From the NCBI RefSeq assembly GCF_000015045.1, contig NC_008609.1, positions 1,541,001-1,605,000 of the forward strand: a stretch of DNA of 64,000 bases. The letters are read 5' to 3'. Below, piece by piece: positions 20,608-48,907 of the stretch (within the stretch, counting starts at the first letter, position 1; every line of letters begins with the position of its first letter). This DNA comes from Pelobacter propionicus DSM 2379. GTDB taxonomy: Bacteria; Desulfobacterota; Desulfuromonadia; Geobacterales; Pseudopelobacteraceae. The notes under the pieces are model-generated. The model made no database searches and was not told the origin of the DNA. It saw nothing but the letters and a program-made list of their open reading frames with translations. A program made the position numbers and the translations under genes.

Positions 20608-21660
20608 TCAACTCAACTCTCCGGTTGATTTGACATCATACCCCGGCAGTTCTTTCAGCATGTTCTTCAGCGGCGAGGAGCGAACAACATCCACCAGGGC
20701 CCGCACACGGGGGTCGTCTGCCTGCGTCCCTGGGATGCACAGGTCAAAGGCCTCCTCCCGCAGGGAGATGAAGTCCAGTCCGGCCTCGTCCGACACCAGC
20801 CTCACCGAGATGCCAGCCTCTGCCCAGCCGGCGCGGATGGCCTCCACCACTCCCAGGTGATCCCTGGCCATCATGGTCGGGGAGATCTTTCCCCCCTGCA
20901 GCAGGTCATCCAGTACCTGGCGTGCGCCCGATCCGGTTTCACGCCCGATCCAGCGGATGTTGGCCTCCAGGATCTGACGCACGCTGCTCAGCCCCAGTCC
21001 CGGGGCAAGAACCAGTCCCTCCTCCCAGTCGGCCAGGCGCAGCAGGGTGAACGGAACATCCAGGATCTCCCGCGCCGCCTTGCTGTTCTCCTCCGGGCTG
21101 GTGCTTCGTGCCAGGTGCAGGCCGGCCACGTGCACCAGTCCGTCCCTGACCAGCTCCAGTGCAGTGCGGCTTGGCCGGGAGAGCACCAGCATCCGGTAGG
21201 GGGTGGAGCGGGCGTATTCCGCCGCCAGGAGGCCGGCCGCCGGGTCGCAGCTGGCCATGACCAGGGTGCGGTAGGGGTCGCTGAAGGGGTTTTCGAACAG
21301 CCTTCCTTCGCGGAAAACCCCGTCGTGGGGCACCATGCCAAGGGGGGAGTGCTCCACCGGGTAAAGCAGCAGCCTGTTGCTGACCATGGCGCGCCAGCAG
21401 CGGCAGGGCGCCTGCAGGGGAGGCCAGGCCCAGTGCAGTTCCGCCTGTCCGCCCACCTGAAAGAGCTCTTCCACCGGGCAGGCGAATACCTTGGCCAGGG
21501 CCAGGGCAGCCACGGTGGAGGGCACCAGCTTGCCGGTTTCTATGGCGCTGACTCCGGCGCGGGAGAGTCCGGCCCGTTCGGCCAGTTCCTGCTGTGACCA
21601 GCCCCGCTCTTCCCGGAACTTCTTGATGTGATTGCTGAGAGGAATTTCTTCTCTTGACAT
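20608..21660 (-). CDS. XRE-type regulator with C-terminal molybdate-binding-protein-like domain
   Basis: A 350-residue one-component regulator. Residues ~10-65 are an XRE helix-turn-helix (WSQQELAERAGLSRAGVSAIETG). Residues ~85-350 form a PBP-like domain of the COG1910 type (GRETGSGARQVLDD, then IRAGWAEAGISVR, ending ELPGYDVKSTGEL), the same domain as in the fused MoeA. It most likely senses cytoplasmic molybdate or tungstate and controls the modABC genes that follow and the divergent ModE-like gene. The ATG at 21660 has no strong ribosome site, and the open frame extends to 21714. Confidence 0.85.
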   Translation of the reverse strand: MSREEIPLSNHIKKFREERGWSQQELAERAGLSRAGVSAIETGKLVPSTVAALALAKVFACPVEELFQVGGQAELHWAWPPLQAPCRCWRAMVSNRLLLYPVEHSPLGMVPHDGVFREGRLFENPFSDPYRTLVMASCDPAAGLLAAEYARSTPYRMLVLSRPSRTALELVRDGLVHVAGLHLARSTSPEENSKAAREILDVPFTLLRLADWEEGLVLAPGLGLSSVRQILEANIRWIGRETGSGARQVLDDLLQGGKISPTMMARDHLGVVEAIRAGWAEAGISVRLVSDEAGLDFISLREEAFDLCIPGTQADDPRVRALVDVVRSSPLKNMLKELPGYDVKSTGELS

Positions 21661-21675
21661 GATAATAGAGTGTGT

Positions 21676-21751
21676 GACAGTATTCTGTCGCTCCCTGGGT
21701 TTTTGTGACAGCATCGTGACGTGTCTTAGGTTTTTATGACAGTATTCTGTC
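21676..21751. promoter_or_regulatory. Three phased operator-like sites between the XRE-PBP and ModE-like genes
   Basis: GACAGTATTCTGTC occurs at 21676-21689 and 21738-21751, and an imperfect copy GACAGCATCGTGAC at 21707-21720. Start-to-start spacing is 31 bp both times, about three helical turns, so a regulator would bind on one face of the DNA. Spacers share GGTTTTT. The sites fill the divergent promoter region and are probably bound by one of the two flanking regulators. Confidence 0.75.
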
Positions 21752-21780
21752 TATTGCAAGAAAAAAAGAGGAGCGCATCA

Positions 21781-22221
21781 ATGACGCTGCTTTCCCATGA
21801 TGACGCGCAGTCGGGAAAATCGGGAGGAGGTGTGGGGGGACACGCGGTGAGCAGGGAATCAACGCTGCACATTTCTGAAGCCGGTCAGCGGGAAGATGGC
21901 ACTGACCAGGTTGGAGCCGGAGATGAGGCAGACGCTCTCCGTACGACAAACCTTCTTCTGGGGAAAGAGCAGCTCAATCTGATGGTCAGGATTCATGAGC
22001 TTGGCTCCATCGGTATGGCTGCCCGGGAGCTCGGTATCAGCTTCAAGGATGCTTGGGACATGGTCATGGCGATCAATCGCCTCTCTGGTCCGCCGCTGGT
22101 GTACCGCCTGGGTATCGGCACGATGGGCGGTGTCACCCTTCTGAGCGAGGAGGGGAAGATGATCGTCTCCCGACTGATCACGGAAACGAGGGGCGCGGCC
22201 CGGATTACTGATAAAAACTGA
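21781..22221 (+). CDS. ModE-like winged-helix DNA-binding protein (N-terminal domain only)
   Basis: A 146-residue protein whose second half is the ModE/LysR-type winged helix: LNLMVRIHELGSIGMAARELG, then FKDAWDMVMAINRL and VTLLSEEGKMIV. It lacks the C-terminal di-Mop molybdate-sensing part of full ModE. The first ~55 residues are polar and low-complexity. GAGGAG precedes the ATG at 21781. Divergent from the XRE-PBP/modABC operon across the three phased sites. It may need a separate sensor such as the di-Mop protein. Confidence 0.82.
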   Translation: MTLLSHDDAQSGKSGGGVGGHAVSRESTLHISEAGQREDGTDQVGAGDEADALRTTNLLLGKEQLNLMVRIHELGSIGMAARELGISFKDAWDMVMAINRLSGPPLVYRLGIGTMGGVTLLSEEGKMIVSRLITETRGAARITDKN

Positions 22222-22224
22222 ATC

Positions 22225-22327: not shown

Positions 22328-22512
22328 AGAAACTGAATACGAACATCACATGTAATTGTTTGCTCCTGCTTCCCCGTGGCGATGAGGCCACGGGTGGCGG
22401 AGCCGGGGATTTCGCCGAAAACAACGGCATCCCCCCTGATCTGGAAGTTATGAATACCGAGGTTATCCAAGGCCAACGTGTGTCCGACTCCGTTGGCCAT
22501 TTTTGTATCCAC
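22321..22512 (-). pseudogene. Possible C-terminal gene fragment on the minus strand
   Basis: This 63-codon frame has GC-rich third positions, like real genes here, and a plausible beta-rich protein sequence (NFQIRGDAVVFGEIPG, then QEQTITCDVRIQF). It has no ribosome site, is preceded by an in-frame stop near 22534, and its stop codon lies in the right arm of the repeat element. It may be the tail of a decayed gene. No family recognised. Confidence 0.3.
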
Positions 22513-22638: not shown

Positions 22639-22703
22639 CCTCCCCTGGGGAAAACAGTAAACCTTTGTGGGACAGTCTTAGGTGCGAAGGACAACGGGAG
22701 ACA

Positions 22704-23723
22704 ATGCAAACCGTGAAAAATACACTCTGGATATCGGGACTCGTACTGTTGCTCTGCCTTACCGTGCTGGTGTCGCTGACCCTGGGCAAATACCCTGTGG
22801 GCCTTGCGGAACTGGGTGATTACCTGCTCTCCCTGTGCGGTGCCGGCTCCCTGGATGGCGAGAGAGCCGCCCTGTTGCGCAATATCCTGGTGGAGATCCG
22901 TCTGCCGCGCATCCTGGCCGCCCTGCTGATCGGTGCGGCCCTGTCCGTTTCCGGTGCCGCGTTCCAGTCAATGTTCATCAACCCCCTGGTCTCTCCCAGC
23001 CTGCTGGGCGTGCTCTCCGGCGCCTCCTTTGGCGCGGCCTTGGGCATGATCGTCTCCGGCGACTGGCTGGTGGTGCAGGTGTCTTCCTTCCTGTTCGGCC
23101 TGCTGGCGGTGCTGCTCTCCGTGGGGGTCGCCCGGCTGTACCATGGCGACCGCATGCTGATGCTGCTCCTGGGGGGCATCATCAGCGGCGCCCTGTTCAC
23201 CTCTTTGCTCTCCGTCGTCAAATACCTGGCCGATCCCTACAACCAGCTTCCCGCCATCGTCTACTGGCTGATGGGAGGACTCAGCATGGTGGACATCAGG
23301 ACGGTGCTGGTGGTCTCGATCCCCATCGGGCTGGGCATACTGGCCATTATCGTCCTCTCCCCCTATCTGAATATCCTCAGCATGGGGGATGACGAGGCCA
23401 CGACCCTGGGTGTCAGGGTCAGCCTGATCCGCATGACCCTGATCTTCTTCGCCACCCTGATCAGCGCCCTGACCGTGGTGCTGGGGGGGATGATCGGCTG
23501 GGTCGGGCTGATCGTGCCGCACATCGCCCGCATGCTCACCGGCCCGGACAATCGCCTGCTGCTGCCGGTGGGGGCGCTTCTGGGCGCCATCTACCTGGTG
23601 GTGGTGGATGATGTCTCCCGGCTGATATTCAGCGTCGAAATCCCCCTGGGAATCGTCACCTCCCTGGTGGGCATTCCCTTCTTCGCGCTGGTGCTGAAAA
23701 ACGCACGGAAAGGATGGGGCTAA
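22704..23723 (+). CDS. FecCD-family ABC transporter permease (metal-chelate/cobalamin type)
   Basis: A 339-residue inner membrane permease with about ten hydrophobic segments, the length and type of FecC/FecD/BtuC. The N-terminal PRILAALLIGAALSVSGAAFQ segment and the LGGMIGWVGLIVPHIARM loop before the ATPase-contact region are family hallmarks. The ATG at 22704 is preceded by GGGAG; the frame is open to 22503 but the extra residues are not permease-like. It is the only permease gene for several binding proteins in the island, so it probably forms a homodimer and is shared. Confidence 0.92.
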   Translation: MQTVKNTLWISGLVLLLCLTVLVSLTLGKYPVGLAELGDYLLSLCGAGSLDGERAALLRNILVEIRLPRILAALLIGAALSVSGAAFQSMFINPLVSPSLLGVLSGASFGAALGMIVSGDWLVVQVSSFLFGLLAVLLSVGVARLYHGDRMLMLLLGGIISGALFTSLLSVVKYLADPYNQLPAIVYWLMGGLSMVDIRTVLVVSIPIGLGILAIIVLSPYLNILSMGDDEATTLGVRVSLIRMTLIFFATLISALTVVLGGMIGWVGLIVPHIARMLTGPDNRLLLPVGALLGAIYLVVVDDVSRLIFSVEIPLGIVTSLVGIPFFALVLKNARKGWG

Positions 23724-23725
23724 TC

Positions 23726-24520
23726 ATGCTGCTTCAGGCTGACAACATCACCTTCAGCTATTCCACGAGGACGGTGCTTCACGACGTTTCCTTCTCAATC
23801 CGCAAAGGCGAGATCGTGTCGCTCCTGGGTCCCAACGGATGCGGCAAGACCACTCTGCTGAAACTCCTGCTGGGGCTGCACCACCCGAAGGAGGGCGGCG
23901 CGGTCCGTTTCGAGGGGAAGAAACTCTCCTCCATCAACCGCAAGACCCTGGCGCGCAGCATCGCCTATGTGCCCCAGTTCCACCGGGCTTCCTTTGCCTA
24001 CCGGGTGATCGACGTGGTGCTGATGGGGAGGATGCCGCACAAGCCCTTTTTTGCCCGTTTCAGTCGGGATGACCTGCGCATGGCGAGGGAGGCGCTGGAG
24101 AAACTTTCCATCCTGCACCTGGAGGATCGGCCCTATACGGAGATCAGTGGCGGCGAACGGCAACTGGCGCTGATCGCCCGGGCCATGACCCAGGGGGCCC
24201 ACACCTTCATCTTCGACGAGCCAGCCAACGGCCTGGATTACGGCAACCAGATCCGGCTTTTGGAGGAGTTGGTCAACCTGAGCAGCGAGGGGTACACCTT
24301 CATAAAATCGACCCATTTCCCCGACCACGCCCTCTGGGTGGCGGACCGGGTGCTGATGATGAAAGAGGGAAACATTATCGCCAACGGCAGTTCGGACGAG
24401 ACCATTACCCGAGAGAACCTGTACTCCCTGTACGGCAGGGAGGTGGACATCCATAGCCTGAAAGAGAACTTCAGGGTATGCGTGCCCAGCAGGCTGGGAG
24501 CGGCCTCGAATACACACTGA
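23726..24520 (+). CDS. FecE-type ABC transporter ATP-binding protein
   Basis: A 264-residue ATPase partnering the upstream permease. Walker A is GPNGCGKTT, the signature is ISGGERQLALIARAM, and Walker B is TFIFDEPANGLD. An alternative ATG at 23714 overlaps the permease stop; the ATG at 23726 lies just before the conserved LLQADNITFSY start. The family imports siderophores, heme or cobalamin from periplasmic FecB/BtuF-type proteins. Confidence 0.92.
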   Translation: MLLQADNITFSYSTRTVLHDVSFSIRKGEIVSLLGPNGCGKTTLLKLLLGLHHPKEGGAVRFEGKKLSSINRKTLARSIAYVPQFHRASFAYRVIDVVLMGRMPHKPFFARFSRDDLRMAREALEKLSILHLEDRPYTEISGGERQLALIARAMTQGAHTFIFDEPANGLDYGNQIRLLEELVNLSSEGYTFIKSTHFPDHALWVADRVLMMKEGNIIANGSSDETITRENLYSLYGREVDIHSLKENFRVCVPSRLGAASNTH

Positions 24521-24562
24521 TTGGCCGACGAACGCGTCAGGCCACGGGAAGGAGAATCATTG

Positions 24563-25135
24563 ATGGTTCAGATTACGGATGTTCATGAGGTGTTGGAGCG
24601 TTGTGTGGAATACCACGGCCACTTTTGCGCCGGCCAGTCCCTGGGGGTGCGCATCGCCAAGAAAGGGCTGGAGCTGATCGGGGCGGAGGATCAGAAGGAT
24701 CTGATCGTCTTCGTTGAAAACGACCGCTGCATCGCCGATGCGGTGCTGATGGCCACCGGCACCCGCCTGGGAAGGCGCAGCCTGAAGTTTGTCGACTACG
24801 GCAAGATGGCGGCCACCTTCATCAACCTGAAGAAGGACCTTGCCTACCGGGTCGGACTTAAACCGGTGGACCATGAGGAGACACCCCCTGAGGGTGAACA
24901 GGATGACATGAAGGATCGGGTTCTGACCCTGGCCGATGAGGAACTGCTCTTCTGGAATCGGGTCAGGGTCAGCCTGAAGAAGGAACAGCTTCCGGGCAAG
25001 CCGGAACGGATCGTCCGCTGTGCGGTCTGCGGCGAGAAGGTGTTCGACGCCAAGGATATCATGGCTGAGGAGGAGAGCGCCGGTCCGCTCTGCGTCTCCT
25101 GTGCCCATGGCGCCTACTACCAGGCGGGGGAATAG
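24563..25135 (+). CDS. FmdE-family protein (formylmethanofuran dehydrogenase subunit E-like)
   Basis: A 190-residue protein with the FmdE domain at about residues 10-120: YHGHFCAGQSLGVRIAKKG carries the conserved His and Cys of the family, and FVENDRCIADAVLMATGT follows. The C-terminus has a zinc-ribbon pair, CAVCGEKVFD and CVSCAHG. FmdE proteins were first seen with the Mo/W enzyme formylmethanofuran dehydrogenase and are proposed to bind metal; the exact role is not established. AAGGAG precedes the ATG at 24563. It is placed between an ABC importer and the TonB energiser. Confidence 0.85.
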   Translation: MVQITDVHEVLERCVEYHGHFCAGQSLGVRIAKKGLELIGAEDQKDLIVFVENDRCIADAVLMATGTRLGRRSLKFVDYGKMAATFINLKKDLAYRVGLKPVDHEETPPEGEQDDMKDRVLTLADEELLFWNRVRVSLKKEQLPGKPERIVRCAVCGEKVFDAKDIMAEEESAGPLCVSCAHGAYYQAGE

Positions 25136-25138: not shown

Positions 25139-25573
25139 ATGGATTGGCTCAAAAATCTCGTGGATTACGGCGTGATTTCGCTTTTGGCGCTGCTGAGCGT
25201 CGTTGCCGTCAGCTGTGCCATCGAACGCTATCTGACCTACCGGCGGATTGAACTGAACGATTATCAGGACAAGAAATCCCTGGAGCTGGAGCTGACCTCG
25301 CGGTTGCACCTGATCGCTACGGTGGGGAGCAACGCCCCCTATCTGGGGCTCTTGGGCACGGTGCTGGGGATCATGCTGACCTTCGCCACCATGGGCAGGG
25401 AGGGGTTCATGGACACCTCCAAGGTCATGGTCGGCCTGGCCCTGGCCATGAAGGCCACCGCGGCCGGGCTGTGCGTGGCCATCCCCTCCACGGTCCTCTA
25501 CAACCTGCTGCTGCGGCGGGTCAAGGTGCTCATGTTCAGATGGGAGATCATGAATGGAAGAAAAGGAATTTGA
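25139..25573 (+). CDS. exbB: ExbB/TolQ-type proton channel protein, short form
   Basis: A 144-residue inner membrane protein, shorter than typical ExbB (over 200 residues) but with the core intact. It has one N-terminal hydrophobic segment ([18 protein letters not shown]) and the two hydrophobic segments of the MotA/TolQ/ExbB domain ([19 protein letters not shown] and [15 protein letters not shown]). The cytoplasmic loop is much reduced. It overlaps exbD by 20 bases. With ExbD and TonB it would convert the proton gradient into force on outer membrane receptors. Confidence 0.88.
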
Positions 25574-25934
25574 CTACATCAACATCATCCCGTTCGTGGA
25601 CATCATGCTGGTGCTCCTGACCATCGTGCTGACCACCTCCACCTTCATCGCCAGCGGCGGCATCCCGGTCAATCTCCCCAAGGCCTCGCGCAGCAATCAG
25701 GAGGTCATCAAGACCAGGACCATCCAGGTGGACGTGAACGGTACCGTCATCTTCGACGGCCATATCCTGACCATGCCTGCGCTGGCTACGGTCTTGCGGC
25801 CGCTTGACCGGGCCACCCCCTTCCTGATCAGGGCCGACCGGGACATCTCCCTGCAGGGATTCGTGGATGTGCTGGACACGGTCAAGAGCTGCGGTTTCAG
25901 CCGGGTCAGCCTACAGACCGAGAGTCGGCAATGA
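25554..25934 (+). CDS. exbD: ExbD/TolR-type protein
   Basis: A 126-residue inner membrane protein with one TM helix near the N-terminus. [14 protein letters not shown] includes the essential membrane Asp of ExbD. The periplasmic domain runs from about residue 45 to 125 ([13 protein letters not shown]). It overlaps exbB upstream and the tonB start downstream by four bases, implying a coupled operon. Confidence 0.92.
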
Positions 25935-26728
25935 ACAGACAGCGGAAGTCTCTCTGCTTGTCGCTCCTGATCCATGGCGCGCTGCTCTCCTCCCTCTATG
26001 CGGTGAGCAGTTCCTCGGCCTGGCAGAGCGCTCCGGTGGTGATCGACTTTGACGTCTCATCGGGAGCTGCTCCTGTCGGTGCTCCTGGCCCATTGCCGGC
26101 AGGGCCAGCCGCGCCGCGGCCGGCCGCACGATCCAACCCGGCGCCCCGGCCCCGGGCAGTGGCGCCTCTGCCGCCTGCCCCTGTCGCACCGCGGTCCGCC
26201 CCCAGGACGGCCCTGGAGCAGAACGGCCCGGCGGCCATCGTCGCACCCCAGAAACGCGAGGCCGTTGCAACAGCCCAGGGCGAGGGGCAGACACGGGCGA
26301 TCGTTCCCGACGGCCCCCCGGGCTCTCCGGGCGGGGTGGGGAGCGTTCCGCCCGGCGGCGGAAGCGGCGGTGGGGGCAATGGAGGCGGCGGTTCGGGGAG
26401 CGAAACCGGAGGGGGCAGCGGTGGCGGAGCAACGGCCGAGCAGTTGCGCAACCGCTACCTGAGGGAGCACTTCGCCTACATCAGGGACCTGATCCAGAAG
26501 AATATCTCCTATCCGGCGCGGGCGCGGAAATTCGGCTGGGCCGGCAAGGTGGTGGTGACCTTCATCATCCACGAATCCGGAAAAGTCAGTAACGAGCGGG
26601 TAGTCGCCAGTTCCGGCCATAACCTTCTGGACAATAACGTGATCGACACCATCAGGGATGTGTCCCCCTTCCCCAGGCCGCCGGTCAAGGCCGAACTGCG
26701 CATCCCCATCGTCTACCGGCTGGATTGA
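25931..26728 (+). CDS. tonB: TonB energy-transducing protein
   Basis: A 265-residue protein with an N-terminal signal anchor (SLLIHGALLSSLYAV, including the His typical of the TonB membrane helix). A periplasmic Pro/Ala and then Gly/Ser-rich linker covers about residues 45-170. The C-terminal TonB domain spans about 175-265 (NISYPARARKFGWAGKVVV, ending IPIVYRLD). It would energise the three TonB-dependent receptors encoded downstream. The glycine-rich stretch is unusually long. Confidence 0.9.
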   Translation: MNRQRKSLCLSLLIHGALLSSLYAVSSSSAWQSAPVVIDFDVSSGAAPVGAPGPLPAGPAAPRPAARSNPAPRPRAVAPLPPAPVAPRSAPRTALEQNGPAAIVAPQKREAVATAQGEGQTRAIVPDGPPGSPGGVGSVPPGGGSGGGGNGGGGSGSETGGGSGGGATAEQLRNRYLREHFAYIRDLIQKNISYPARARKFGWAGKVVVTFIIHESGKVSNERVVASSGHNLLDNNVIDTIRDVSPFPRPPVKAELRIPIVYRLD

Positions 26729-26796: not shown

Positions 26797-27420
26797 ATGC
26801 AGATGGACGTGAATTCATTCGATCAGCTGGCCCGGGAGGTGTTCGCTCCGGTCTATCCCGTTATTGCCTCCCAGGTTGTTCAACACACCGGCATCACCGA
26901 AGGGGTCTGCCTGGATATGGGCTGTGGCGGCGGCTACCTGGGGCTCGCCCTGGCGCGCGTCACCGACCTTCGTTTCCATTTTCTGGACCAGTCCCGGGAG
27001 ATGCTGGAGATCGTACGGGCCAATCTGGCGGCCAACGGCCTGGAAAACAGGGGGGATGTTCTGGAGGGGAATGCGGAGTCAATCCCGCTTCCCGACCGCT
27101 CGGTCAACCTGGTCATCAGCCGCGGCTCGCTCTTCTTCTGGGACCGGGTACCGGCGTTCCGGGAGATATACCGGGTTCTGGCTCCCGGCGGCATGAGCTA
27201 TATCGGCGGCGGCTTCGGATCGCCCGAGCTGAAGGACGAGATCACCCGGCGCATGGAGGCCAGGTCAGGGGATAACGGCCAGTGGCGCGAGAAGGTGGCC
27301 AGGAACCTGGGACCTCAGGCGCCCCGGGCCTTCGAGGATGAGTTGCGTTGTGCCGGGATACCCGATTTCAGGGTAGAACAGAGCGAGGCAGCCGGGCTCT
27401 GGATCATCGTGAGGAAATAG
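26797..27420 (+). CDS. Class I SAM-dependent methyltransferase
   Basis: A 207-residue type 11 methyltransferase. The SAM-binding motif I is LDMGCGGGYLGLAL, the acidic end of beta2 is FLDQSREM, and motif IV/post-I are LPDRSVNLVISRG and REIYRVLAPGG. It lies four bases before the radical SAM-FecB fusion, so the two are probably co-translated. The ATG at 26797 follows AAAGGA; the frame extends to 26725 without a ribosome site. Acceptor unknown; a chelator or cofactor is suggested by context. Confidence 0.88.
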   Translation: MQMDVNSFDQLAREVFAPVYPVIASQVVQHTGITEGVCLDMGCGGGYLGLALARVTDLRFHFLDQSREMLEIVRANLAANGLENRGDVLEGNAESIPLPDRSVNLVISRGSLFFWDRVPAFREIYRVLAPGGMSYIGGGFGSPELKDEITRRMEARSGDNGQWREKVARNLGPQAPRAFEDELRCAGIPDFRVEQSEAAGLWIIVRK

Positions 27421-27423: not shown

Positions 27424-29253
27424 ATGGAAAAGCTGCGTTGCGAAGTGTGCGAGAGGAGCTGTGTCATATCCACCGGCGGCCTGGGGGCGTGCGGGCGCTA
27501 TGGGGAGCAAGATGGCGGTATCGTGGAGCGTTATCCAAACCAGTACCTGGTGGCCTGCCCCATCTCCATCGAAACCATGCCCATGCTCCACTTCCACCCC
27601 CGGTCAAAGTTCCTCCAGATCAGCAGCACCGGTTGCAACTTCGACTGTCCCGGTTGCATCTCCACCGTCATCGTCAAGGAGATGTCCCCTGCCAGCAGTG
27701 CCCTGCAACGGCTGACGCCGGAAGAGGTGGTCTGCAAGGCCCTGGACAACGACTGCGTGGGGATCGCCTTTCTGATGAACGACCCCCTGGCCGGCTTGCC
27801 CAGTTTTATCCAGGTGGCGGCCCTGGCTCGCTCCCACGGCCTGCTCATGGGGTGCTCGACCAACGCCTATTTTACCGAGTCGTCCCTGGCCGCGCTGCTG
27901 CCGCACCTGGATTTCATCAATATCGGCTTCAAGGGCTTTTCCGATCAGGCCTATGCCGCCTGTGGCGCGGCGAGCGTGCAGCCGGTCCTGCGTAACCTGA
28001 AAACTCTCCACGCGGGAGGAGTTCATGTGGAGGTCTCCTGCATCATGCACACCGGCAATATGGAGGAAGTGCGTGATCTGGCCCGCCATCTGGCTGGCAT
28101 CTCGCCGACCATTCCCCTGCAGGTGATGCGCTTCATCCCCCTGGAGGGGGCCGAGATCTCCCGGGAGCCATCCATACGCCAGGCCGAGGAGTTCTGCGCC
28201 GGGCTTAAGGGGATACTGGAGTACGTCTACCTGTTCAACTCACCTGGCACGGAGCTTTTGCACACCCGTTGCCCGGGCTGCGGCGAGATCCTGATCAGGC
28301 GGGACTTCTACGGTCCCATGGGGGCCAAATTTCTCGATGCCTGCCCCGGACTGTCGCCGGATAACCGCTGTCCCCGCTGTCTCCGCCGCCTGGAGATGGT
28401 CGGAGCGCCGGCGGCCACCGTCTACCAGGAGGGGGACTTCGAGGGGGGATACCCGTTCACGCGGGCACTGGAGATCATCGAGGCGATGCTGATCGCCATG
28501 GGGGTGGACCGCAAGGCAACGGTGGTGCGGGCCTGGGAAGATTTCCTTGGCGCCGGTGACATGGGCGGCTTTCACCGGGCCATACAGAAGCCCCGCTGCT
28601 ACATCGACATGGTGCGCCATTTCGGGAGCGTTGCCGGTGTGGCCGAACAGGGCGAGAGGCTGGCCGTCTATCTGGAACGGCAGGTGGCGCGCGTTGAAAA
28701 GGATCTGGCCGGGGTGCGTCATCGACCGAGGGTCTACTATGCCATGGGCACGCCGCTCTTCTACCTGCGCGGCGGTCGCCTGGAGAACCAGCTGGCCGAA
28801 ACAGCGGGCGGGATCAGCGTTAACCGGGCCCTTGAGGCATCCGGCCGCCCCGGCCGAAGCCTTTCCGTGGAGCAGCTCAACGAACTGGACCCGGAGGTTA
28901 TGGTTATCTCCGCCTTTATCTCCAGCAGCGTGGATGATTTTTATGCCGAATGCCTCCGCCTGGGGATAACCGCCCAGGCGGTGCGGAAACGCAGGATCTA
29001 CGCCCATCCGGCGCCCGGTTGGGATTTCGGCACGCCGCGCTGGATACTGGGGCTGCTGTTTTTGGCACACACCCTCCATCCCGAGCTCTGTCGGGTGGAT
29101 GTTATGGCCGAAGCGGAGGAGTTTTACCGCAGGTTCTACGGAACCGGTTTTTCCCCGGCCGGAATGAACCGCTCTTTTGGCAAACCGTCGGCGAACTGGC
29201 AGTGGGGGAGCGGGTCGGTGGAGCAGGCTCTCATGCCGCAAACAGTGCAATGA
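27424..29253 (+). CDS. Radical SAM protein fused to a FecB-like solute-binding domain
   Basis: A 609-residue cytoplasmic fusion with no signal peptide. An N-terminal Cys cluster (Cys6, 9, 13, 23) resembles the AmmeMemoRadiSam/COG1180 group. The radical SAM motif CNFDCPGC gives Cys71, 75 and 78. Next comes a zinc-ribbon-like region (~280-325; CPGCGEI and CPRCLRR). Residues ~435-570 look like a FecB/BtuF-type binding domain: RPRVYYAMGTPLFY, then LDPEVMVISAFISS and the helix LLFLAHTLHPELC. This suggests it binds an imported chelate and acts on it radically. A paralogue lies at 48888-50699. Confidence 0.85.
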   Translation: MEKLRCEVCERSCVISTGGLGACGRYGEQDGGIVERYPNQYLVACPISIETMPMLHFHPRSKFLQISSTGCNFDCPGCISTVIVKEMSPASSALQRLTPEEVVCKALDNDCVGIAFLMNDPLAGLPSFIQVAALARSHGLLMGCSTNAYFTESSLAALLPHLDFINIGFKGFSDQAYAACGAASVQPVLRNLKTLHAGGVHVEVSCIMHTGNMEEVRDLARHLAGISPTIPLQVMRFIPLEGAEISREPSIRQAEEFCAGLKGILEYVYLFNSPGTELLHTRCPGCGEILIRRDFYGPMGAKFLDACPGLSPDNRCPRCLRRLEMVGAPAATVYQEGDFEGGYPFTRALEIIEAMLIAMGVDRKATVVRAWEDFLGAGDMGGFHRAIQKPRCYIDMVRHFGSVAGVAEQGERLAVYLERQVARVEKDLAGVRHRPRVYYAMGTPLFYLRGGRLENQLAETAGGISVNRALEASGRPGRSLSVEQLNELDPEVMVISAFISSSVDDFYAECLRLGITAQAVRKRRIYAHPAPGWDFGTPRWILGLLFLAHTLHPELCRVDVMAEAEEFYRRFYGTGFSPAGMNRSFGKPSANWQWGSGSVEQALMPQTVQ

Positions 29254-29296: not shown

Positions 29297-31273
29297 ATGA
29301 GATGGAGCGTAGCGGCGGGGGTGGCCCTGCTCGCCCTGGAGACCACGGTTCAGGCGGGAATGGCGGAGGAGCAAACCGTGGAGGTCGACAGCGTGGAAGT
29401 GACCGGCACGCGTGATCGGGAGCCGGTCTACAGCTCGTTCACCGTGCCGGAGAGCGCGGCGGCCACCGTGGAGGAGTTCAGCCGGGAGGATATCCGTGCC
29501 GTGGCGCCAAGCAGCATCTATGACATCGCGGCGCTCTCCCCCGGGGCACAGGTCACGTTTCAGGGGCGCAAGGGGATGAATGCCCTGCAACTGCGTGGCG
29601 GCGATACCTTGGGCGTTATCCTGGATGGCGTGTATATCCCCTGGTCCCAGGCATCGCGAATGCTGGCCCAGTTTCCGGTTGACGCCATTGAGTCGGTCCG
29701 TGTCGTGCGCGACAGTTCCGCCGTCACCCTGGGGCCGCTGACCCCCTTTTCTCCGGCGGTGAACCACGACAACGCCCCTACCCCCGGCCAGGGAAGTTCG
29801 AACCAGGGCTTCATGGTCATTACCACCAAGCGGGGTAAGGGGTTCGAGGTTGGTGGAATCGCCGAGTACGCCAGCCACAACAGCCGCAACTTCCAGCTCT
29901 ACCACGGCTACAAGAAGGGGCCTCTCTCCTATCGCCTGGTGGGAACCGTCTCCGGTACCGATGGCCGGGACGGCTGGAACAATGCCGCCAGCACCCGCTC
30001 CATCCTGGCCAACGGCAATTACGACGCTACGGACCTGAAGGCGGACTTCATGGTCTACTTCGCCGACTCCCGGCGGGAGATCCAGCGATCCACTAAGGAG
30101 AGCACCACCTCTAACGCGCTTTGGTATTACGATCCGATGAAATCCCTTCAACTCTCCGTCAATCTGCACAAGCCCTGGAACGACGTTCATACCACCTCAC
30201 TCTCCTATGCCCGTGGCCGTGTCACGGCCCACGAAGTGCTGCGCACGACCAAGGCGACCCCCGATGACATCAGCCAGGCCGACCAGAGCGACATGCTGCA
30301 CCTCTGGCATGTGGCCGCCACTGCGAACAACCGTTTCGTGGCCGGCCTGCAGGGATTCCGCTGGGAAAGCCCCACCGGCCAGTTCTTCTACGAGAATATA
30401 GCGCGCAAGGAGGATCTGGTCTCCGGCTATCTCCACGACGAGTATCGCCTGAACGATCGACTGACCCTGGATGGCGGAATCAGGGTGGATGCCAAGTTCA
30501 TCGAAAAGGGGTCGGACAAGTATTCACCGCTTCTGGGCGGCAACAAGATGATCAATGACGAATGGCAGCAACCCGCCATCAGCCTCTCCCTGGGGGGGAG
30601 CTACAAGCTGGATCGTATGCATCGCCTGCTGGCCCGCTTCGGCTACACGCGCCAGGATGCCGATTCTTTTCTGGCGACGGTTGATGGCAAGGACCTGGAT
30701 ACTGAGGAGCGTTTCAAGTACGAGCTGGGGATCGAGGCCAACTACCACCCCGCCTTCAACCCCACGCTCACATTGTTTCTCTACGATATCCGCAAGTTTG
30801 CCTATGCTGCCGCCACCGGCGGAAGCGGCGCCACCGCCTACAATATCTACGACTCCGCCGACGTTATCCGCGAGGGGGTCGAGTTTTCCTGCAAGGGGGC
30901 TCTCCCCTGGGGCTTCGGCTACAACACCGGTTATTCCTATATCACCACCGACCGCGGTGCGACCAACAAGATCAAGCCGCATCACATGGTGAACCTGCGC
31001 CTTTCCCACAAGATCAACGCGGTGGAGAGCAATCTGATCCTGAACTATGTGGGACCCTACGAAAACAACTTCCTCTCCACCGGCAGCGTCTACCGCCCTG
31101 CCGGGGGCTATACACGCCTGGATATGAATGTGAGCTACGCTTTTACGCTGCGTGGCGCCCAAGCCCGGGCAACCCTGTACGGTCGCAACCTGTTGGACGA
31201 CCACTACGTCACCATAGCTGGCTGGCGGGACCAGGGGATGGTCTGGGGCGGCAAGATGGAAGTGGCGTTCTGA
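29297..31273 (+). CDS. TonB-dependent outer membrane receptor 1
   Basis: A 658-residue receptor: signal peptide (MRWSVAAGVALLALE...), plug domain around residues 30-180 (NALQLRGGDTLGVILDGVYI), then a beta barrel ending in an aromatic/hydrophobic strand KMEVAF, as expected for BAM targeting. GGGGAGG precedes the ATG at 29297; the frame is open to 29177 inside the previous gene. It differs clearly from the other two receptors. Ligand unknown; probably the metal chelate handled by the island. Confidence 0.9.
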   Translation: MRWSVAAGVALLALETTVQAGMAEEQTVEVDSVEVTGTRDREPVYSSFTVPESAAATVEEFSREDIRAVAPSSIYDIAALSPGAQVTFQGRKGMNALQLRGGDTLGVILDGVYIPWSQASRMLAQFPVDAIESVRVVRDSSAVTLGPLTPFSPAVNHDNAPTPGQGSSNQGFMVITTKRGKGFEVGGIAEYASHNSRNFQLYHGYKKGPLSYRLVGTVSGTDGRDGWNNAASTRSILANGNYDATDLKADFMVYFADSRREIQRSTKESTTSNALWYYDPMKSLQLSVNLHKPWNDVHTTSLSYARGRVTAHEVLRTTKATPDDISQADQSDMLHLWHVAATANNRFVAGLQGFRWESPTGQFFYENIARKEDLVSGYLHDEYRLNDRLTLDGGIRVDAKFIEKGSDKYSPLLGGNKMINDEWQQPAISLSLGGSYKLDRMHRLLARFGYTRQDADSFLATVDGKDLDTEERFKYELGIEANYHPAFNPTLTLFLYDIRKFAYAAATGGSGATAYNIYDSADVIREGVEFSCKGALPWGFGYNTGYSYITTDRGATNKIKPHHMVNLRLSHKINAVESNLILNYVGPYENNFLSTGSVYRPAGGYTRLDMNVSYAFTLRGAQARATLYGRNLLDDHYVTIAGWRDQGMVWGGKMEVAF

Positions 31274-31388: not shown

Positions 31389-32279
31389 ATGAGAAGCAGA
31401 CGTGAAAACGGCGACAGGGGAGGGAGTTCCCGCGTGATCCTGGACGAGGCGGAGCATACCCTGCGTGCACGCTACGGCGCAGGCCTGGACGACCTGGTCG
31501 TGGAGCGGTTGGTGGTGGGGGTCTTCTTCGTGGGGGTGAAGCTCTCCAACGGCTGCGGCGGGGTTGCCTACACCCCTCCCGACGTGGTCAGGAATGCCGG
31601 CAACCGCATCCTGAAGGGGAATGGGAAAACCCCCTTCATCCGCGGCATAGGCGTCACGCAGGTCATGGCCGGCGACGTGCCCGGACCATTCGCGGGAGTC
31701 ATCAGGCTGGCCACCCTGAATGCCCTCTCGGTTCCGTTTCTGGAGGATGGCCGCTATCGCGTGGACGAAACCGGCGACCTGTCCGGCGTGCAGTCCCTGT
31801 TCCGCAACCGGAGAATCTGCATGGTGGGCGCCATCATCCCGCTGCTGAAGAAATTGAAGCACGTCGGCACCGCCGGAGTGTCCATCATCGACCACAAGCA
31901 GGAGACCCGCGCCGAGGCCGGGGAAGGCTACGGAACCTTCGTTTCGCCGGAACGGACCGCCGAGACTCTCTCCCGCTGTGAAACAGCCGTATTCACCGGG
32001 GCCGCCATCGCCAACAACAGCATCCGGGAACTGCTCGGACAGGTTCCCCGCCATGCAGCCATCGCCGTGGCCGGGCCGACGGCCGGATTTGTGCCCGAGC
32101 CGCTCTTCCGGCGCGGGGTGGCCATGGTGGGGACGGTGGTGGTCAGCGACAGCGACCGCGCCCTAGACATCCTGGCCGAAGGGGGCGGGGGGTACCGGTT
32201 GTTCAAGGAGTGCGTGCGCAAGATCAACCTGCTCAATGTGGAGCGCCTGTGCCAGCTGGGATTGGGTGGCGCTTTCTGA
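31389..32279 (+). CDS. DUF364 putative heavy-metal-chelation protein 1
   Basis: A 296-residue cytoplasmic protein with the two-part layout of the family: an N-terminal DUF4213-type domain (VVGVFFVGVKLSNGCGGVAY) and a C-terminal Rossmann-like DUF364 domain (RICMVGAIIPLLKKLKHVG, later VAGPTAGFVPEPLF). The family is annotated as putative heavy-metal chelation from structure and context; biochemical function is not established. It sits between two receptors. AAAGGAGAGGA precedes the ATG. Confidence 0.82.
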   Translation: MRSRRENGDRGGSSRVILDEAEHTLRARYGAGLDDLVVERLVVGVFFVGVKLSNGCGGVAYTPPDVVRNAGNRILKGNGKTPFIRGIGVTQVMAGDVPGPFAGVIRLATLNALSVPFLEDGRYRVDETGDLSGVQSLFRNRRICMVGAIIPLLKKLKHVGTAGVSIIDHKQETRAEAGEGYGTFVSPERTAETLSRCETAVFTGAAIANNSIRELLGQVPRHAAIAVAGPTAGFVPEPLFRRGVAMVGTVVVSDSDRALDILAEGGGGYRLFKECVRKINLLNVERLCQLGLGGAF

Positions 32280-32381: not shown

Positions 32382-34433
32382 ATGAAGAAACAGAAGAGAC
32401 GTTTTTCCGTCAGAATCAAGAAACGGGGTCTGCTGGCACCGGTGCTGGCGGTTTCCCTGCTGTCGACACCAGCCATGGCCGATGACCAGGCGCCGAAGAG
32501 TGACGAAAGCGGCGATGTCTTCACCCTGGGCAACGTGGAGGTTACCGGCAAGGGCGAGAGCATCAAGAACCCGGCCGTGGAGGTGGTCACCAGCGAGGAT
32601 ATGCTCCAGTTCGACACCAAGACCGTGTCCGAAGCAGCCAACCTGGTTCCCGGTGTCACCCTTGCCAAGATGGGGGCGCGCAACGAGTCCACGGTCTACG
32701 TGCGCGGTTTCGACCTCAAACACGCGCCGCTGTTCATGGACGGCATCCCGATCTACGTCCCCTATGACGGCAATGTGGACCTGGGGCGCTTCTTCACCTA
32801 CGACCTGTCGGAGCTGGTCATCTCCAAGGGGTTTGCGTCGGTGCTCTACGGTCCCAACACCATGGGGGGCGCCATCAACATGGTCTCCAAGCGCCCCACC
32901 AAGGAGTTCGAGGGCAGTGCCGGCACCGGTTACAGCTCCGTGGACCAGTACCACGCCTTCGCCAACTTCGGAACCAACCAGGGAAAATGGTACTTCCAGG
33001 GAGGCGGCTCCTGGTTCGACACCAACGGCTTCGAGATGTCGGAGCACTACCACAACACAACCTACGAGAACGGCGGCAAGCGCAACAACGCCTATGCCCA
33101 GGACTGGAAGGTCAGCGGTAAGCTGGGGTTGACCCCCAACAGCACCGACGAGTACGCCCTGAGCTATATCTACCAGAACGGCGAAAAGGGGGTGCCTCCC
33201 TACGCCGGCGACAATCTCACAAACCAGAAAAAGAAGTTCTGGCAGTGGCCCTACTGGAGAAAGCAGAGCCTGTACTTCACCTCCAATACTGCCATCGGCG
33301 AGAAGAGTTATGTGAAGACCCGCGCCTATTATGATCGCTTCAAAAACTCGCTTTTGATCTTCACCAATGACAGCTACAGCACCGTCACGCCCAACAGCGG
33401 CAACAGGAGCTGGTACGACGACTACACCTATGGCGCGTCCATCGAGGCTGGCACCAAACTGATCTCCAACAACGAAATCAAGCTGGCCTTTCTTTTCAAG
33501 GACGATGTCCATCGTGAGGACGATGATGCCACCGGTTCCCCACAGAAACGTTTTGAGGAGCGCATCTTCACCATCGCCCTGGAGGACACGATCAAGCTGA
33601 CCGACAAGCTCTCCGCCATACTGGGGGTCAGCTACGACTTCCAGAATACGGTCCAGGCCCAGGACTACAATCCGATCGTCTCCGGCGGCCCCAATGTGCT
33701 GCACGATTTCGACCGTAAAAACAATAGCGACGTCAATGCCCAGGCAGCGCTGTTCTATGCCTACTCCGACACCGGCAAGGTGCATGCCGCCGTGGCGCGC
33801 AAGAATCGTTACCCTTCCATCAAGGATAAATACTCCTACCGGTTCAAGACCTATGTGCCAAACGAAAATCTGGATCCTGAAGTGTCCAATAACTATGAAA
33901 TCGGTGTCGAGGATACATTTGCCAAAAATATTAGAGTCAAAAGCACCCTGTTTTTTAACGACATATCGAAATATATCCTGGAAGTTAAAAACGTGGAGGG
34001 AACCAAGTCGCAGCTTCAGAACGTTGGCCACGTCCAGCGCTACGGCTACGAACTCGAGGCGAACGCCGCTATTACCGAGAGCCTGGAAGCCGGTATGAAC
34101 TATACCTTCATGTACAACAAGAACAGGACCAGCGATCTGGTAATAACCGATCTTCCCAAGCACAAGTTCTTCGCCTACGGCACGTACTCCCCCATCAAGC
34201 AACTCAAGCTGTTCGCCTCACTGGAGTACGACACCAGGCGCTACAGTTCGTCCGACGGGGTGGATGAGGCGGGTGAGTTTGTGGTCATCAACACCAAGGC
34301 GAGTTACGAGGCGATCAAGGACCTCGTGCTGGAGGCGGGGATCAACAACCTCCTGGACCGGGATTATGAGTTGACCGAGGGCTATCCCGAGGCGGGCCGC
34401 ACCTATTTCGTCCAGGCGCGCTACAAGTGGTGA
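32382..34433 (+). CDS. TonB-dependent outer membrane receptor 2
   Basis: A 683-residue siderophore-type receptor: signal peptide ending PAMA, plug with VYVRGFDLKHAPLFMDGIPI and NTMGGAINMVSKRP, and a barrel ending VQARYKW, the C-terminal aromatic of outer membrane proteins. GAGGAGG precedes the ATG. Closely related to receptor 3 (44692-46740) over its full length, so one arose by duplication within the island. The TCGCG-TAA-CGCGA palindrome at 32324-32336 lies upstream and could be a regulator site. Confidence 0.93.
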   Translation: MKKQKRRFSVRIKKRGLLAPVLAVSLLSTPAMADDQAPKSDESGDVFTLGNVEVTGKGESIKNPAVEVVTSEDMLQFDTKTVSEAANLVPGVTLAKMGARNESTVYVRGFDLKHAPLFMDGIPIYVPYDGNVDLGRFFTYDLSELVISKGFASVLYGPNTMGGAINMVSKRPTKEFEGSAGTGYSSVDQYHAFANFGTNQGKWYFQGGGSWFDTNGFEMSEHYHNTTYENGGKRNNAYAQDWKVSGKLGLTPNSTDEYALSYIYQNGEKGVPPYAGDNLTNQKKKFWQWPYWRKQSLYFTSNTAIGEKSYVKTRAYYDRFKNSLLIFTNDSYSTVTPNSGNRSWYDDYTYGASIEAGTKLISNNEIKLAFLFKDDVHREDDDATGSPQKRFEERIFTIALEDTIKLTDKLSAILGVSYDFQNTVQAQDYNPIVSGGPNVLHDFDRKNNSDVNAQAALFYAYSDTGKVHAAVARKNRYPSIKDKYSYRFKTYVPNENLDPEVSNNYEIGVEDTFAKNIRVKSTLFFNDISKYILEVKNVEGTKSQLQNVGHVQRYGYELEANAAITESLEAGMNYTFMYNKNRTSDLVITDLPKHKFFAYGTYSPIKQLKLFASLEYDTRRYSSSDGVDEAGEFVVINTKASYEAIKDLVLEAGINNLLDRDYELTEGYPEAGRTYFVQARYKW

Positions 34434-34464: not shown

Positions 34465-34524
34465 CTCGTGACTGGTGACTGGGCCAGCCACGAGTCACCA
34501 GCCACGAGTTACGAGTTACGAGTT
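34465..34524. repeat. Inverted repeat plus three tandem 7-base repeats
   Basis: CTCGTGACTGGTGACT (34465-34480) pairs with 34493-34508 in 15 of 16 positions. Directly after it ACGAGTT is repeated three times (34504-34524). The core CGTGACTGGTGAC also occurs at the modA-modB hairpin. It ends 13 bases before a methyltransferase start, so the hairpin could affect its translation. Confidence 0.7.
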
Positions 34525-34537
34525 ACGGGGAGATGCA

Positions 34538-35350
34538 ATGGACAGGATTGAAATCGACTGGAATGCGGCATGGCAGAAGGCGCGGGAGGGGTTCTCACAA
34601 GGAAGCGATTCCTCCTTCTGGGACAAACGGGCGCCCGCCTTTGCCCGGCACGTGAAGGAAACTGACTACGAGAAACGTTTCCTTGATCTGATGCAGCCCG
34701 CCCCCTCCTGGAGCGTGCTGGATTTCGGCTGCGGCGCCGGCACCCTGGCGATTCCGCTGGCCAGACGGGTCGCCTCGGTGACTGCGGTGGACTTCTCCAG
34801 GGTGATGCTGGACCTCTTGCGCCAATCATGCCGGGAAGAGGGGATCACCAACGTCACCCCTCTCCATGGCAGTTGGGACGATGACTGGGAGAGTCTGGGC
34901 ATCGGAAGCCATGACGCGGTGATCGCTTCCCGCTCCCTGGTGGCCCTTGACCTGCGTGAGGCGATCACCAAGCTGGACCGGGCGGCGCGCAGGTCGGTCC
35001 ACATCTCCTCGCTGGTGGGTGATGGCCCCCAGGACCGGCGCATCTACGAGGCGGTGGGCAGGACGCTGGTATCCGGGCCGGATTACATCTACCTCTACAA
35101 CCTGCTGTACCAGATGGGCATCCGGGCCACGATCAACTTCATTACTCACCGGGAGTGGAAGGTCTACGGTAACCTGGACGAGGCGCTGGAGGGGAACTGC
35201 TGGATGCTGAAGGATGTCACCCGGGAAGAGCTGGGACTGCTCCGGCGGTATCTGGCCGCGACCCTGCAGGCCCATGGCAGCGGCTGGCGCATGCCCGAGC
35301 CAAGGGTGGTGCGCTGGGCCCTGATCAGCTGGGAGAAGGATACGGAGTGA
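34538..35350 (+). CDS. Class I SAM-dependent methyltransferase 2
   Basis: A 270-residue methyltransferase with motif I LDFGCGAGTLAIPLARRV, then VTAVDFSRVMLDLL. The C-terminal half (MGIRATINFITHREWKVYG, ARRYLAATLQ-like helix) is not that of a recognised subfamily. The ATG at 34538 follows GGGGAG. It is followed by a radical SAM gene, mirroring the methyltransferase-radical SAM pair at 26797-29253. Substrate unknown. Confidence 0.85.
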   Translation: MDRIEIDWNAAWQKAREGFSQGSDSSFWDKRAPAFARHVKETDYEKRFLDLMQPAPSWSVLDFGCGAGTLAIPLARRVASVTAVDFSRVMLDLLRQSCREEGITNVTPLHGSWDDDWESLGIGSHDAVIASRSLVALDLREAITKLDRAARRSVHISSLVGDGPQDRRIYEAVGRTLVSGPDYIYLYNLLYQMGIRATINFITHREWKVYGNLDEALEGNCWMLKDVTREELGLLRRYLAATLQAHGSGWRMPEPRVVRWALISWEKDTE

Positions 35351-35467
35351 GGAGTGGATGCGCCGTTGTGTGCGGGGCGTGACAACGTTGTCCGGCCGTG
35401 AAATCGCGGTATGTTTGTGAGGCAGGCGGCCGCGGTTGGCCGGGATCGAGTCGAAGGAGGTGCGACC

Positions 35468-36475
35468 ATGCGTTGTCATTACTGTGAGTGGCGCTGCGAA
35501 CTGGGGATGGACAGGTTCGGCGTCTGCAAGATGTACTATTCCGACGGGGAGGCAATCAGGGAACGCTTTCCCCGGCGCTGGTGCAGCTTCGGCGTCATCG
35601 GCATCGAGGCGATTCCCTTCTATCACGTGTATCCCGGCAGCCGCTGCATGACCATCGGCACCAGCAGCTGCAACTTCCACTGCCGCTACTGCGCCAACGC
35701 CTTCATCGCCAAACGGGACCCGGCGGAGATGCAGGACGAGCTCCTGGATCTCACCCCCACAGACATGGTCAAGACGGCACGGAAGCTGGGCTGCCACCAC
35801 ATCGTCTTCAACGTGAATGAGCCGGCCGTGTCGATGGACTCGCTCCGGGAACTGGCCCGGGAGGCACAAAACGCCGGCGTCACCATGGGCTGCCTGACCA
35901 ACGGCTATACGACCCCGGAATCCACGGAGATACTGGCGTCCCTGTTTTCGTTTTTCAACATCAGCCTGAAAGGGCTGTCACCGGAGTTCAACCGGGAATA
36001 CATCGGCATCCCCTCGGTGGAGCCGGTGCTGCGTACCATCAGGCAGCTGGCCGCCATACGCCATGTGGAGGTGGCCACTCCGGTCATCCAGGGGGTGAAC
36101 GACCATGAGCTGGATGAGATGGCCGGGCTGATCGCGGCCATCGACCCGGAAATCCCCTGGCACGTCTTCCGCCTGCTGCCGGAGGACGAGATGCGCGATA
36201 CCCCCTATCCCAACATCGTATCGGTCAACAGTCTGCTGGAGCCGGCGCGCGGGAAGCTGGCCAATGTCTATTTCCATAACTTCGTCGGTTCGGAGTGGGT
36301 CAATACCCTCTGCCCTTCCTGCGGGAGCGTGGCGATCGAACGCTTCAGCCTGGGGTGCGGCGGCGACAAGCTGCAGCGTTTCCTCTGTCCCGGCGCCCGC
36401 TGCTCCTCCTGCGGACACACCATCAGGCTGTTGGGCGACCGGGTGGCCTGGAACGATGGGGGAGGTGCCCAATGA
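35468..36475 (+). CDS. Radical SAM protein, same subfamily as the fusion proteins but without the binding domain
   Basis: A 335-residue protein. Cys3, 6, 10 and 20 form the same N-terminal cluster, and CNFHCRYC gives Cys68, 72 and 75, the same spacing as in the two FecB-fused paralogues. A C-terminal zinc-ribbon-like part holds CPSCGSVAIERF and CSSCGHTI. It ends where the others continue into a FecB-like domain. GAAGGAGG precedes the ATG at 35468. It overlaps the next gene by four bases (ATGA). Confidence 0.87.
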   Translation: MRCHYCEWRCELGMDRFGVCKMYYSDGEAIRERFPRRWCSFGVIGIEAIPFYHVYPGSRCMTIGTSSCNFHCRYCANAFIAKRDPAEMQDELLDLTPTDMVKTARKLGCHHIVFNVNEPAVSMDSLRELAREAQNAGVTMGCLTNGYTTPESTEILASLFSFFNISLKGLSPEFNREYIGIPSVEPVLRTIRQLAAIRHVEVATPVIQGVNDHELDEMAGLIAAIDPEIPWHVFRLLPEDEMRDTPYPNIVSVNSLLEPARGKLANVYFHNFVGSEWVNTLCPSCGSVAIERFSLGCGGDKLQRFLCPGARCSSCGHTIRLLGDRVAWNDGGGAQ

Positions 36476-37608: not shown

Positions 37609-37701
37609 TACCAAACTGCGCCGGTGCGGAGGAGTCCGATCGCGGAGACGCATTGGCGGTGACCTCGTGCCGTGCAACTCATACAGTCGAACCCATCGTC
37701 T

Positions 37702-37720
37702 CCTCTCCCTCGGGGAGAGG
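37702..37720. repeat. Short palindromic hairpin of the CTCTCCC-GGGAGAG type
   Basis: Eight-base stem CCTCTCCC / GGGAGAGG with a 3-base loop, in the gap before the second DUF364 gene. It resembles REP-like hairpins widespread in proteobacterial intergenic DNA. Confidence 0.5.
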
Positions 37721-37762
37721 GTGGCTCAGGAAATTGCCGTGTTCAACGAAAGGATAGCTGTC

Positions 37763-48313: not shown

Positions 48314-48907
48314 ATGAAGCCGGAGACACTGGACGAGAAAGTCAAGCGGGTGCTGCGCGACAGGATTGAGGTTGTTCCCTATGATGCCTGCTGGCCATTG
48401 CTGTTCGAAGAGGAAAAGGCGTATCTCCTTGCGATGTTTCCCCAGGACCTGATCAGGAGGGTCGAACATTTCGGCAGTACCTCGGTGCCGGGGCTGGCGG
48501 CCAAGCCGGTGATCGACATGCTGATCGAGGTCTCGTCACTTGAAAGGACGAAAGTGGAAATCGCGCAGGTTCTGGAAAGAAAGGGCTACGACTACTTCTG
48601 GCGCGCCAGCCATGGCGAGGAGGTCCCCCCCTTCTACGCCTGGTTCATCAAACGGAACGGACGGGGGGAGCGTACCCACCACCTGCACATGGTGGAGTCC
48701 CATTTCGAACAGTGGGACAGGCTGCTGTTTCGCGATTACCTGAGGAGCCATCCGGAAGAGGCGGCGCGCTATCAGGAGCTGAAACTGTCACTTTGCCGTC
48801 AGTATGGCGACGACCGCATCGCCTACACCAGGGCCAAGACCGGTTTCATCGTCGAGTTGACCAAGAGAGCACAGGGGAGAACTCAACATGCAGTGCGCCA
48901 TATGTGA
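48314..48907 (+). CDS. GrpB/UPF0157-family protein
   Basis: A 197-residue protein of the GrpB family, a nucleotidyltransferase-fold group. RRVEHFGSTSVPGLAAKPVIDMLIEV is split across the diagnostic HxGSTSVPG and KPxID elements, followed by the YFWRASH and THHLHMVE segments. GGGAG precedes the ATG. Its last 20 bases overlap the radical SAM-FecB fusion gene, so the two are likely coupled. GrpB proteins are sometimes linked to CoA or nucleotide chemistry; a role in this island is unknown. Confidence 0.87.
   Translation: MKPETLDEKVKRVLRDRIEVVPYDACWPLLFEEEKAYLLAMFPQDLIRRVEHFGSTSVPGLAAKPVIDMLIEVSSLERTKVEIAQVLERKGYDYFWRASHGEEVPPFYAWFIKRNGRGERTHHLHMVESHFEQWDRLLFRDYLRSHPEEAARYQELKLSLCRQYGDDRIAYTRAKTGFIVELTKRAQGRTQHAVRHM

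Follow-up and report, generated by a model that had tools for sequence, protein, structure and literature searches.

The window analysed here, a 64,000-nucleotide stretch of the 4.24 Mb genome of Pelobacter propionicus DSM 2379, carries on its plus strand a long run of importer genes that includes a radical SAM enzyme gene fused to part of a class III binding protein. The run opens with a FecCD-type permease (22683..23723; PF01032, E = 1e-76), a FecE-type ATPase (23714..24520; PF00005, E = 7e-31) and an FmdE-family protein (24521..25135; PF02663, E = 1e-27), continues with ExbB, ExbD and TonB (25139..26728), and leads to MT1, a 207-amino-acid class I SAM methyltransferase (26797..27420; Pfam Methyltransf_25/11) encoded 3 bases upstream of the fusion gene, fusion A (27424..29253). 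Downstream follow a TonB-dependent receptor with a Plug domain (29297..31273), a DUF4213/DUF364 protein (31389..32279; PF04016, E = 6e-38), another TonB-dependent receptor (32382..34433), MT2, a second class I methyltransferase (34475..35350), a short radical SAM paralogue lacking the FecB lobe (35411..36475; Pfam, NCBIfam), a protein of 359 amino acids unmatched in Pfam and NCBIfam (36529-37608), whose pairing with the short radical SAM gene is conserved in locus L092, a second DUF364 protein (37667..38518; PF04016, E = 3e-46), the periplasmic class III binding protein FecB1 (38808..39845), an enterochelin-esterase-like protein with an N-terminal hydrophobic segment (39930..41630; PF00756, E = 2e-25; NF007758 at 60.6 of 222 bits, below cut-off) and a second periplasmic class III binding protein, FecB2 (41649..42731). 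The solved relatives of FecB1 are 4pag and 4ovk, followed by MolA (3psa, 78 bits). Upstream of the run lie a minus-strand regulator combining HTH_3 and PBP_like domains (20608..21714), of a type also found beside the fusion in other genomes, and a plus-strand gene for a ModE-like DNA-binding protein without a Mop domain (21736..22221; TIGR00637, E = 6e-16 and 58.3 of 98.5 bits, below cut-off). Also present in the window are a modA gene that passes the cut-off and two TupA-like genes that fall short of it. An earlier note on this DNA, made from the sequence alone, had tied fusion A to metal-chelate import, and the place of the gene within a TonB/ExbBD–FecCDE–FmdE–methyltransferase–DUF364 operon agrees with that link.

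Fusion A starts with ATG and encodes 609 amino acids with no internal stops, and its parts were assigned from the open reading frame, Pfam and NCBIfam profiles, sequence matches to the Protein Data Bank, AlphaFold2 and Foldseek. The protein is a member of the radical SAM superfamily, with residues 67-222 matching Radical_SAM (PF04055) at E = 3e-15 and 57.1 bits against a cut-off of 29.5. Both the radical SAM motif C71xxxC75xxC78 (27634..27657, plus strand) and an N-terminal four-cysteine cluster, C6-C9-C13-C23 (27439..27492, plus strand), are invariant in 53 homologues. A four-cysteine ribbon follows, C283/C286...C316/C319 (28270..28380, plus strand), with weak zinc-ribbon matches; C316 is invariant in the same 53 homologues and C283, C286 and C319 are conserved in at least 90%. 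In the AlphaFold2 model (pLDDT 90.6, pTM 0.90) the radical SAM part pairs with the PflA activase by Foldseek, and MoaA and NifB are structurally near. The best NCBIfam match of residues 2-297 is AmmeMemoRadiSam (TIGR04337, AmrS), which has the N-terminal cysteine cluster and radical SAM layout in common with fusion A; the TIGR04337 model, however, spans 349 positions without a FecB lobe, and fusion A falls outside the family because it scores 110.1 bits where 220 are required. Class III binding proteins are exported to the periplasm or surface, whereas inspection of the fusion A N-terminus, MEKLRCEVCERSC, reveals no visible export signal, in line with the cytoplasmic location that the earlier note had assigned. 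Its reading of the cysteine cluster, the CxxxCxxC motif, the ribbon and a FecB-type region in one frame likewise stands.

At roughly residues 390-580 (28591..29163, plus strand), fusion A has the C-terminal lobe of a class III (FecB/BtuF/MolA) binding protein together with its backbone helix. In fusion A alone the Pfam Peripla_BP_2 match is sub-threshold (E = 0.029, profile positions 95-232 of 235); 48 of 53 relatives match the same profile at E up to 0.1, the best at 4.5e-10, and a profile of the 53 relatives detects solved class III binding proteins with E-values down to 5.5e-19. Foldseek pairs the predicted lobe with FecB-type proteins including MolA (E about 1e-9 to 1e-11), and a separate model of residues 337-609 returns the same FecB-type result, with TM-scores of about 0.6 (query) and 0.5 (target). 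The class III resemblance is far past chance. A different fold of this region would have refuted the earlier note, but AlphaFold2 and Foldseek both give the class III one. Only one lobe is present, however. Residues ~390-580 align with the C-terminal ~60% of solved binding proteins (for example, fusion A 403-579 with 161-334 of 335 in 4hn9), neither the sequence matches nor the predicted model of fusion A contains an N-lobe, and its place is taken by the ribbon and a helical stretch (340-390). Because the N-lobe is missing, the fusion has no two-lobe ligand cleft. A complete FecB domain was ruled out on these grounds, with sequence matches and Foldseek covering the C-lobe only, so that the FecB-type binding domain described earlier survives as a C-lobe and backbone-helix fold and not as a whole domain.

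Alignment of the fused lobes with 67 co-encoded periplasmic proteins reveals a common scaffold with different cleft-face positions. The periplasmic residues E441, S452, H454, R535 and R540, which we take from the known class III fold to face the cleft, are replaced in the fusions by M, R, E, F and W as majority residues, with E454 in all fusions aligned. These replacements are near-invariant from methanogens to Geobacter, and the pattern across the alignment points to a lobe that has been repurposed rather than merely copied from a binding protein. Fusion A is thus not the cytoplasmic copy of a binding protein that had been proposed, since it holds a C-lobe only and the cleft residues of its periplasmic counterparts are replaced; for the same two reasons, absent cleft and replaced residues, capture of a chelate after import cannot rest on FecB-like binding alone. 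The replaced residues also weaken the case for a ligand common to the lobe and the periplasmic proteins. The lost N-lobe and the replaced ligand residues could also be read as signs of a structural or dimerisation remnant with no ligand function, a reading that the near-invariance of the new cleft-face residues makes improbable. Conserved and distinct cleft-face residues, with E454 common to all fusions, argue instead for a working surface.

The window encodes a second full-length paralogue, fusion B (48888..50699, plus strand; open reading frame translation, Pfam and NCBIfam), 42% identical to fusion A. A scan of genome contigs found 70 loci, of which 65 carry the fusion whole or almost whole; this list is not a census because the scan patterns were drawn from the ribbon region. 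Hosts belong to seven bacterial phyla (Bacillota, Thermodesulfobacteriota, Campylobacterota, Deferribacterota, Spirochaetota, Chlorobiota and Myxococcota) and to the methanogens, with the nearest fusion-bearing relatives of the window in Geobacter sp. and Desulfuromonadales. Within the window's own class the distribution is patchy (14 of 277 genomes, 4 of 82 genera). In a tree, one branch with support of 99/99 separates the 67 fused lobes from the rest, and this single clade, spread from Bacillota to methanogens, indicates an old fusion, repeated transfer or both. Computation shows a PflA-like radical SAM domain, a four-cysteine ribbon and a backbone helix with C-lobe joined in an ancient fusion. 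A frameshift or one-genome artefact was ruled out by the intact reading frame, the second copy and the relatives in many genomes; at L065 and L099 the gene is split in two frames or lacks its N-terminus, apparently through frameshift or assembly error. Searches of viral contigs returned no relatives, and those of plasmids no full-length relative, with separate half matches only. The architecture is named in none of the family libraries, and we found no description of the radical SAM/binding-protein fusion or of its molybdenum/tungsten (Mo/W) context in the open-licence literature, as the earlier note had supposed for the layout, so an account elsewhere is possible; a proteome study of M. voltae had no bearing on the family. 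We conclude that the fusion is a real and widespread enzyme of anaerobic bacteria and methanogens, apparently undescribed; we regard it as a new radical SAM subfamily that has gained a new partner domain rather than as a category of its own.

Between FecB2 and fusion B lies a segment (43056-48041) that encodes a transposase, a TupA-like protein and a third TonB receptor resembling that at 32382. The segment looks inserted, because in L092, a record from the same genus, FecB2 and fusion B are direct neighbours. Similar elements at 22222-22330 and 46750-46960 flank the system and resemble a MITE-like mobile repeat, with terminal inverted repeats CGATTAGC...GCTAATCG.

Among the 65 loci, MT1 lies directly upstream of the fusion in 40, usually overlapping it or within 10 bases, and FecB and FecCD are present in 46 and 38, respectively, with many loci cut by contig ends. 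TonB-dependent receptors accompany the importer in Gram-negatives. Methanosarcina has a minimal set of FecB, MT1, fusion, FecCD and FecE only, with no evident exporter. ModA scores above cut-off beside the fusion at six loci (L036, L041, L042, L054, L083 and L088), and Sulfurospirillum L059 encodes ModE with Mop domains next to it. The computed neighbourhoods show the fusion co-encoded with a methyltransferase and a FecBCDE importer, with Mo/W regulators or transporters nearby in many genomes. The earlier reading, partly supported overall, had missed this Mo/W context and the second copy. In two Pelotomaculum loci (L042:11027-11827 and L038:11181-11939) a TrmO_N-FmdE fusion directly follows the fusion gene and may mark a SAM-dependent step.

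These neighbours bear on two further explanations. Siderophore synthesis and uptake genes often lie together, and the combination of two methyltransferases, DUF364 and a radical SAM enzyme looks like a small biosynthetic set. The strongest rival reading is ligand biosynthesis, in which the fusion and MT1, with MT2, DUF364 and FmdE, build a Mo/W chelator or metallophore that FecBCDE re-imports, and the C-lobe serves to sense or retain the finished compound, free or metal-bound; pterin, flavin or siderophore chemistry has been proposed for DUF364 (PMC2954201). We nevertheless consider it unlikely, because no exporter or scaffold-building enzyme recurs in fusion loci, the archaeal set consists of just the five genes above, and a fused binding-protein lobe more naturally signifies recognition of an imported compound. 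The second explanation is maturation or metal insertion, with the fusion modifying a protein or a pterin or Fe-S cofactor intermediate to load Mo/W in the manner of radical SAM maturases. Nearby Mo/W regulators and the structural proximity of the radical SAM domain to PflA activase, MoaA and NifB favour it, but the genes that constantly accompany the fusion encode importer components and a small methyltransferase, not an apo-enzyme target, and we give this reading little weight.

Regulatory RNAs provide a further indication of cargo. We scanned 39 sources (38 loci and the window) with Rfam and detected Moco/Tuco riboswitches (RF01055) in eight (L036, L037, L039, L042, L046, L050, L093 and L095). 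In L036, L037, L050, L093 and L095 the riboswitch lies directly upstream of the fusion operon on the same strand, scoring 63.5-80.8 bits against a gathering threshold of 36, and the operons led in this way include both A-type and B-type fusions. Across 18 genomes, 10 riboswitches were observed at most 10 kb from a fusion where 0.66 would be expected, an enrichment whose p value is not to be taken literally because selected and unselected genomes and related loci are mixed. In nine further genomes of the class no RF01055 occurs within 10 kb of a fusion; independent replication thus failed, and the linkage is lineage-specific. Loci read among these nine contain FecB, FecCD, FecE, FmdE, MT1 and the HTH_3 and PBP_like regulator in varying combinations. 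The P3 stem is absent in all 16 aligned riboswitches of the Geobacter lineage and present in L039 and apparently L050; the P3-less form has been associated with the tungsten cofactor (PMC2408646). Two other riboswitches of the P. propionicus genome stand before genes that, by our reading of their translations, encode tungsten-type aldehyde:ferredoxin oxidoreductases. About 1 kb past the window end, at L113:1036-1149 (G000:C3:1606033-1606149), a Moco/Tuco-type RNA that scores 56 bits by R1 and 31.6 by Rfam lies ~0.9 kb upstream of apparent F-type ATP synthase genes, with no obvious Mo/W gene between.

The window's own operon is preceded by a divergent Moco/Tuco-riboswitch-like leader (22348..22466, plus strand) upstream of fecCD and just downstream of the ModE-like gene, recognised by a lineage-specific covariance model and alignment with relatives. 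RF01055 itself scores 13.2 bits at 22344-22466, below the Rfam gathering threshold. The lineage-specific model, built from 16 relatives with the window site left out, scores 29 bits, with E-values that are rough because calibrations were short (1.5e-6 in the window, 1e-4 genome-wide), and the next site reaches 15.5 bits. The leader RNA folds 3.5 sd better than shuffles. A hairpin followed by a T run (22470..22500, plus strand) is the likely expression platform, on the basis of its fold, the alignment of relatives and a short terminator-like match inside it, and the leader alignment reaches into a terminator-like hairpin common to L036. Because several invariant aptamer bases are missing, we call the leader a divergent or decaying riboswitch. 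A simple pattern search of promoters for ModE boxes of the E. coli-type consensus (CGnTATAT and similar) found none, an uninformative result.

Siderophores, heme or B12 are the usual cargo of class III importers, and the system might instead handle a complex of iron, nickel or cobalt, or a tetrapyrrole, with Mo/W neighbours that are incidental. The nine genomes without riboswitch linkage speak for this reading, which is nonetheless improbable given that cobalamin riboswitches at gathering threshold occur in 0 of 39 sources against 8 of 39 for Moco/Tuco, that ModA or ModE stands beside other fusions, and that no characterised protein is nearer to FecB1 than MolA. A corrinoid or heme system was set aside on the cobalamin count.

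The gene neighbours suggest that the fusion handles Mo or W complexes after import. A Mo/W link of the system is likely, and we place the processing of an imported complex in the cytosol by the fusion at even odds. Our preferred reading, with a probability of roughly 0.48, is that the fusion serves as a cytosolic enzyme of siderophore-like Mo and/or W uptake that processes the imported chelate together with MT1. The importer would bring in an organic or thio-chelate of Mo/W; the half-lobe would pack on the radical SAM domain, and the imported complex or its ligand would sit at the interface between the two rather than in a two-lobe cleft; the 5'-deoxyadenosyl radical and MT1 would modify or break the ligand and free the metal for cofactor synthesis; and the FmdE and DUF364 proteins may receive or further process the products. 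The proximity of FecB1 to MolA among characterised proteins counts for the Mo/W reading. DUF364 (PF04016) has been linked by context to transporters of molybdate, tungstate and other rare metals (PMC2954201), and TonB channels of Pelobacter have been noted in the vicinity of molybdopterin riboswitches or of metal-binding proteins (PMC3543383), both of which agree with this mechanism. Against it count the lack of exporter or chelator-synthesis genes that would prove an organic chelate, the nine riboswitch-less genomes, the missing aptamer bases and the replaced ligand residues.

Several known systems share parts of this arrangement. MolA/MolBCA of Haemophilus influenzae, a class III importer, has the C-lobe fold and Mo/W context in common with the fusion system; MolA is however periplasmic and two-lobed with no enzyme domain, where the fusion system has TonB receptors and cytosolic enzymes, and MolA binds free molybdate or tungstate oxyanion, weakly (PMC4031551). 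The radical SAM methyltransferases HutW, ChuW and HmuW tie cytosolic radical chemistry to chelate import as we propose for the fusion, and anaerobic heme opening by HutW, which frees iron (PMC10035031), may serve as a working analogy for metal release. That analogy extends to the manner of working only, because these enzymes act on heme and iron rather than Mo/W and have no described FecB lobe; no HutW-type family is among the NCBIfam matches of fusion A, in a library that may be without such a model. DUF364 occurs twice in the window operon, and the text that describes its transporter context makes no mention of radical SAM enzymes (PMC2954201).

The conserved enzyme joins radical chemistry to a binding-protein half-lobe reused inside a cytosolic protein. 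To our knowledge, the importers ModABC, TupABC, WtpABC and MolBCA carry bare oxyanions, and how anaerobes acquire Mo/W when sulfide or other ligands tie up the oxyanions is little understood. The fusion beside TonB/FecBCDE and Moco/Tuco riboswitches offers a concrete and testable clue that these metals may be taken up as chelates, a route that would concern methanogens, acetogens, syntrophs and metal reducers. More tentatively, strict anaerobes and methanogens may share a dedicated metallophore system under Mo/W control, composed of a TonB receptor where present, a class III importer, a methyltransferase and the half-lobe radical SAM fusion, which would then be the first known Mo/W chelate-opening enzyme.

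Two further features of the window lie outside the importer run. On the minus strand, 11289-13247 encodes a MoeA with a fused C-terminal PBP_like domain, adjoined by a second MoeA-like open reading frame at 13348-14880, and downstream of fusion B, 50988-51734 and 52296-53042 are near-duplicate open reading frames of 248 amino acids that by eye are cytidylate-kinase-like.
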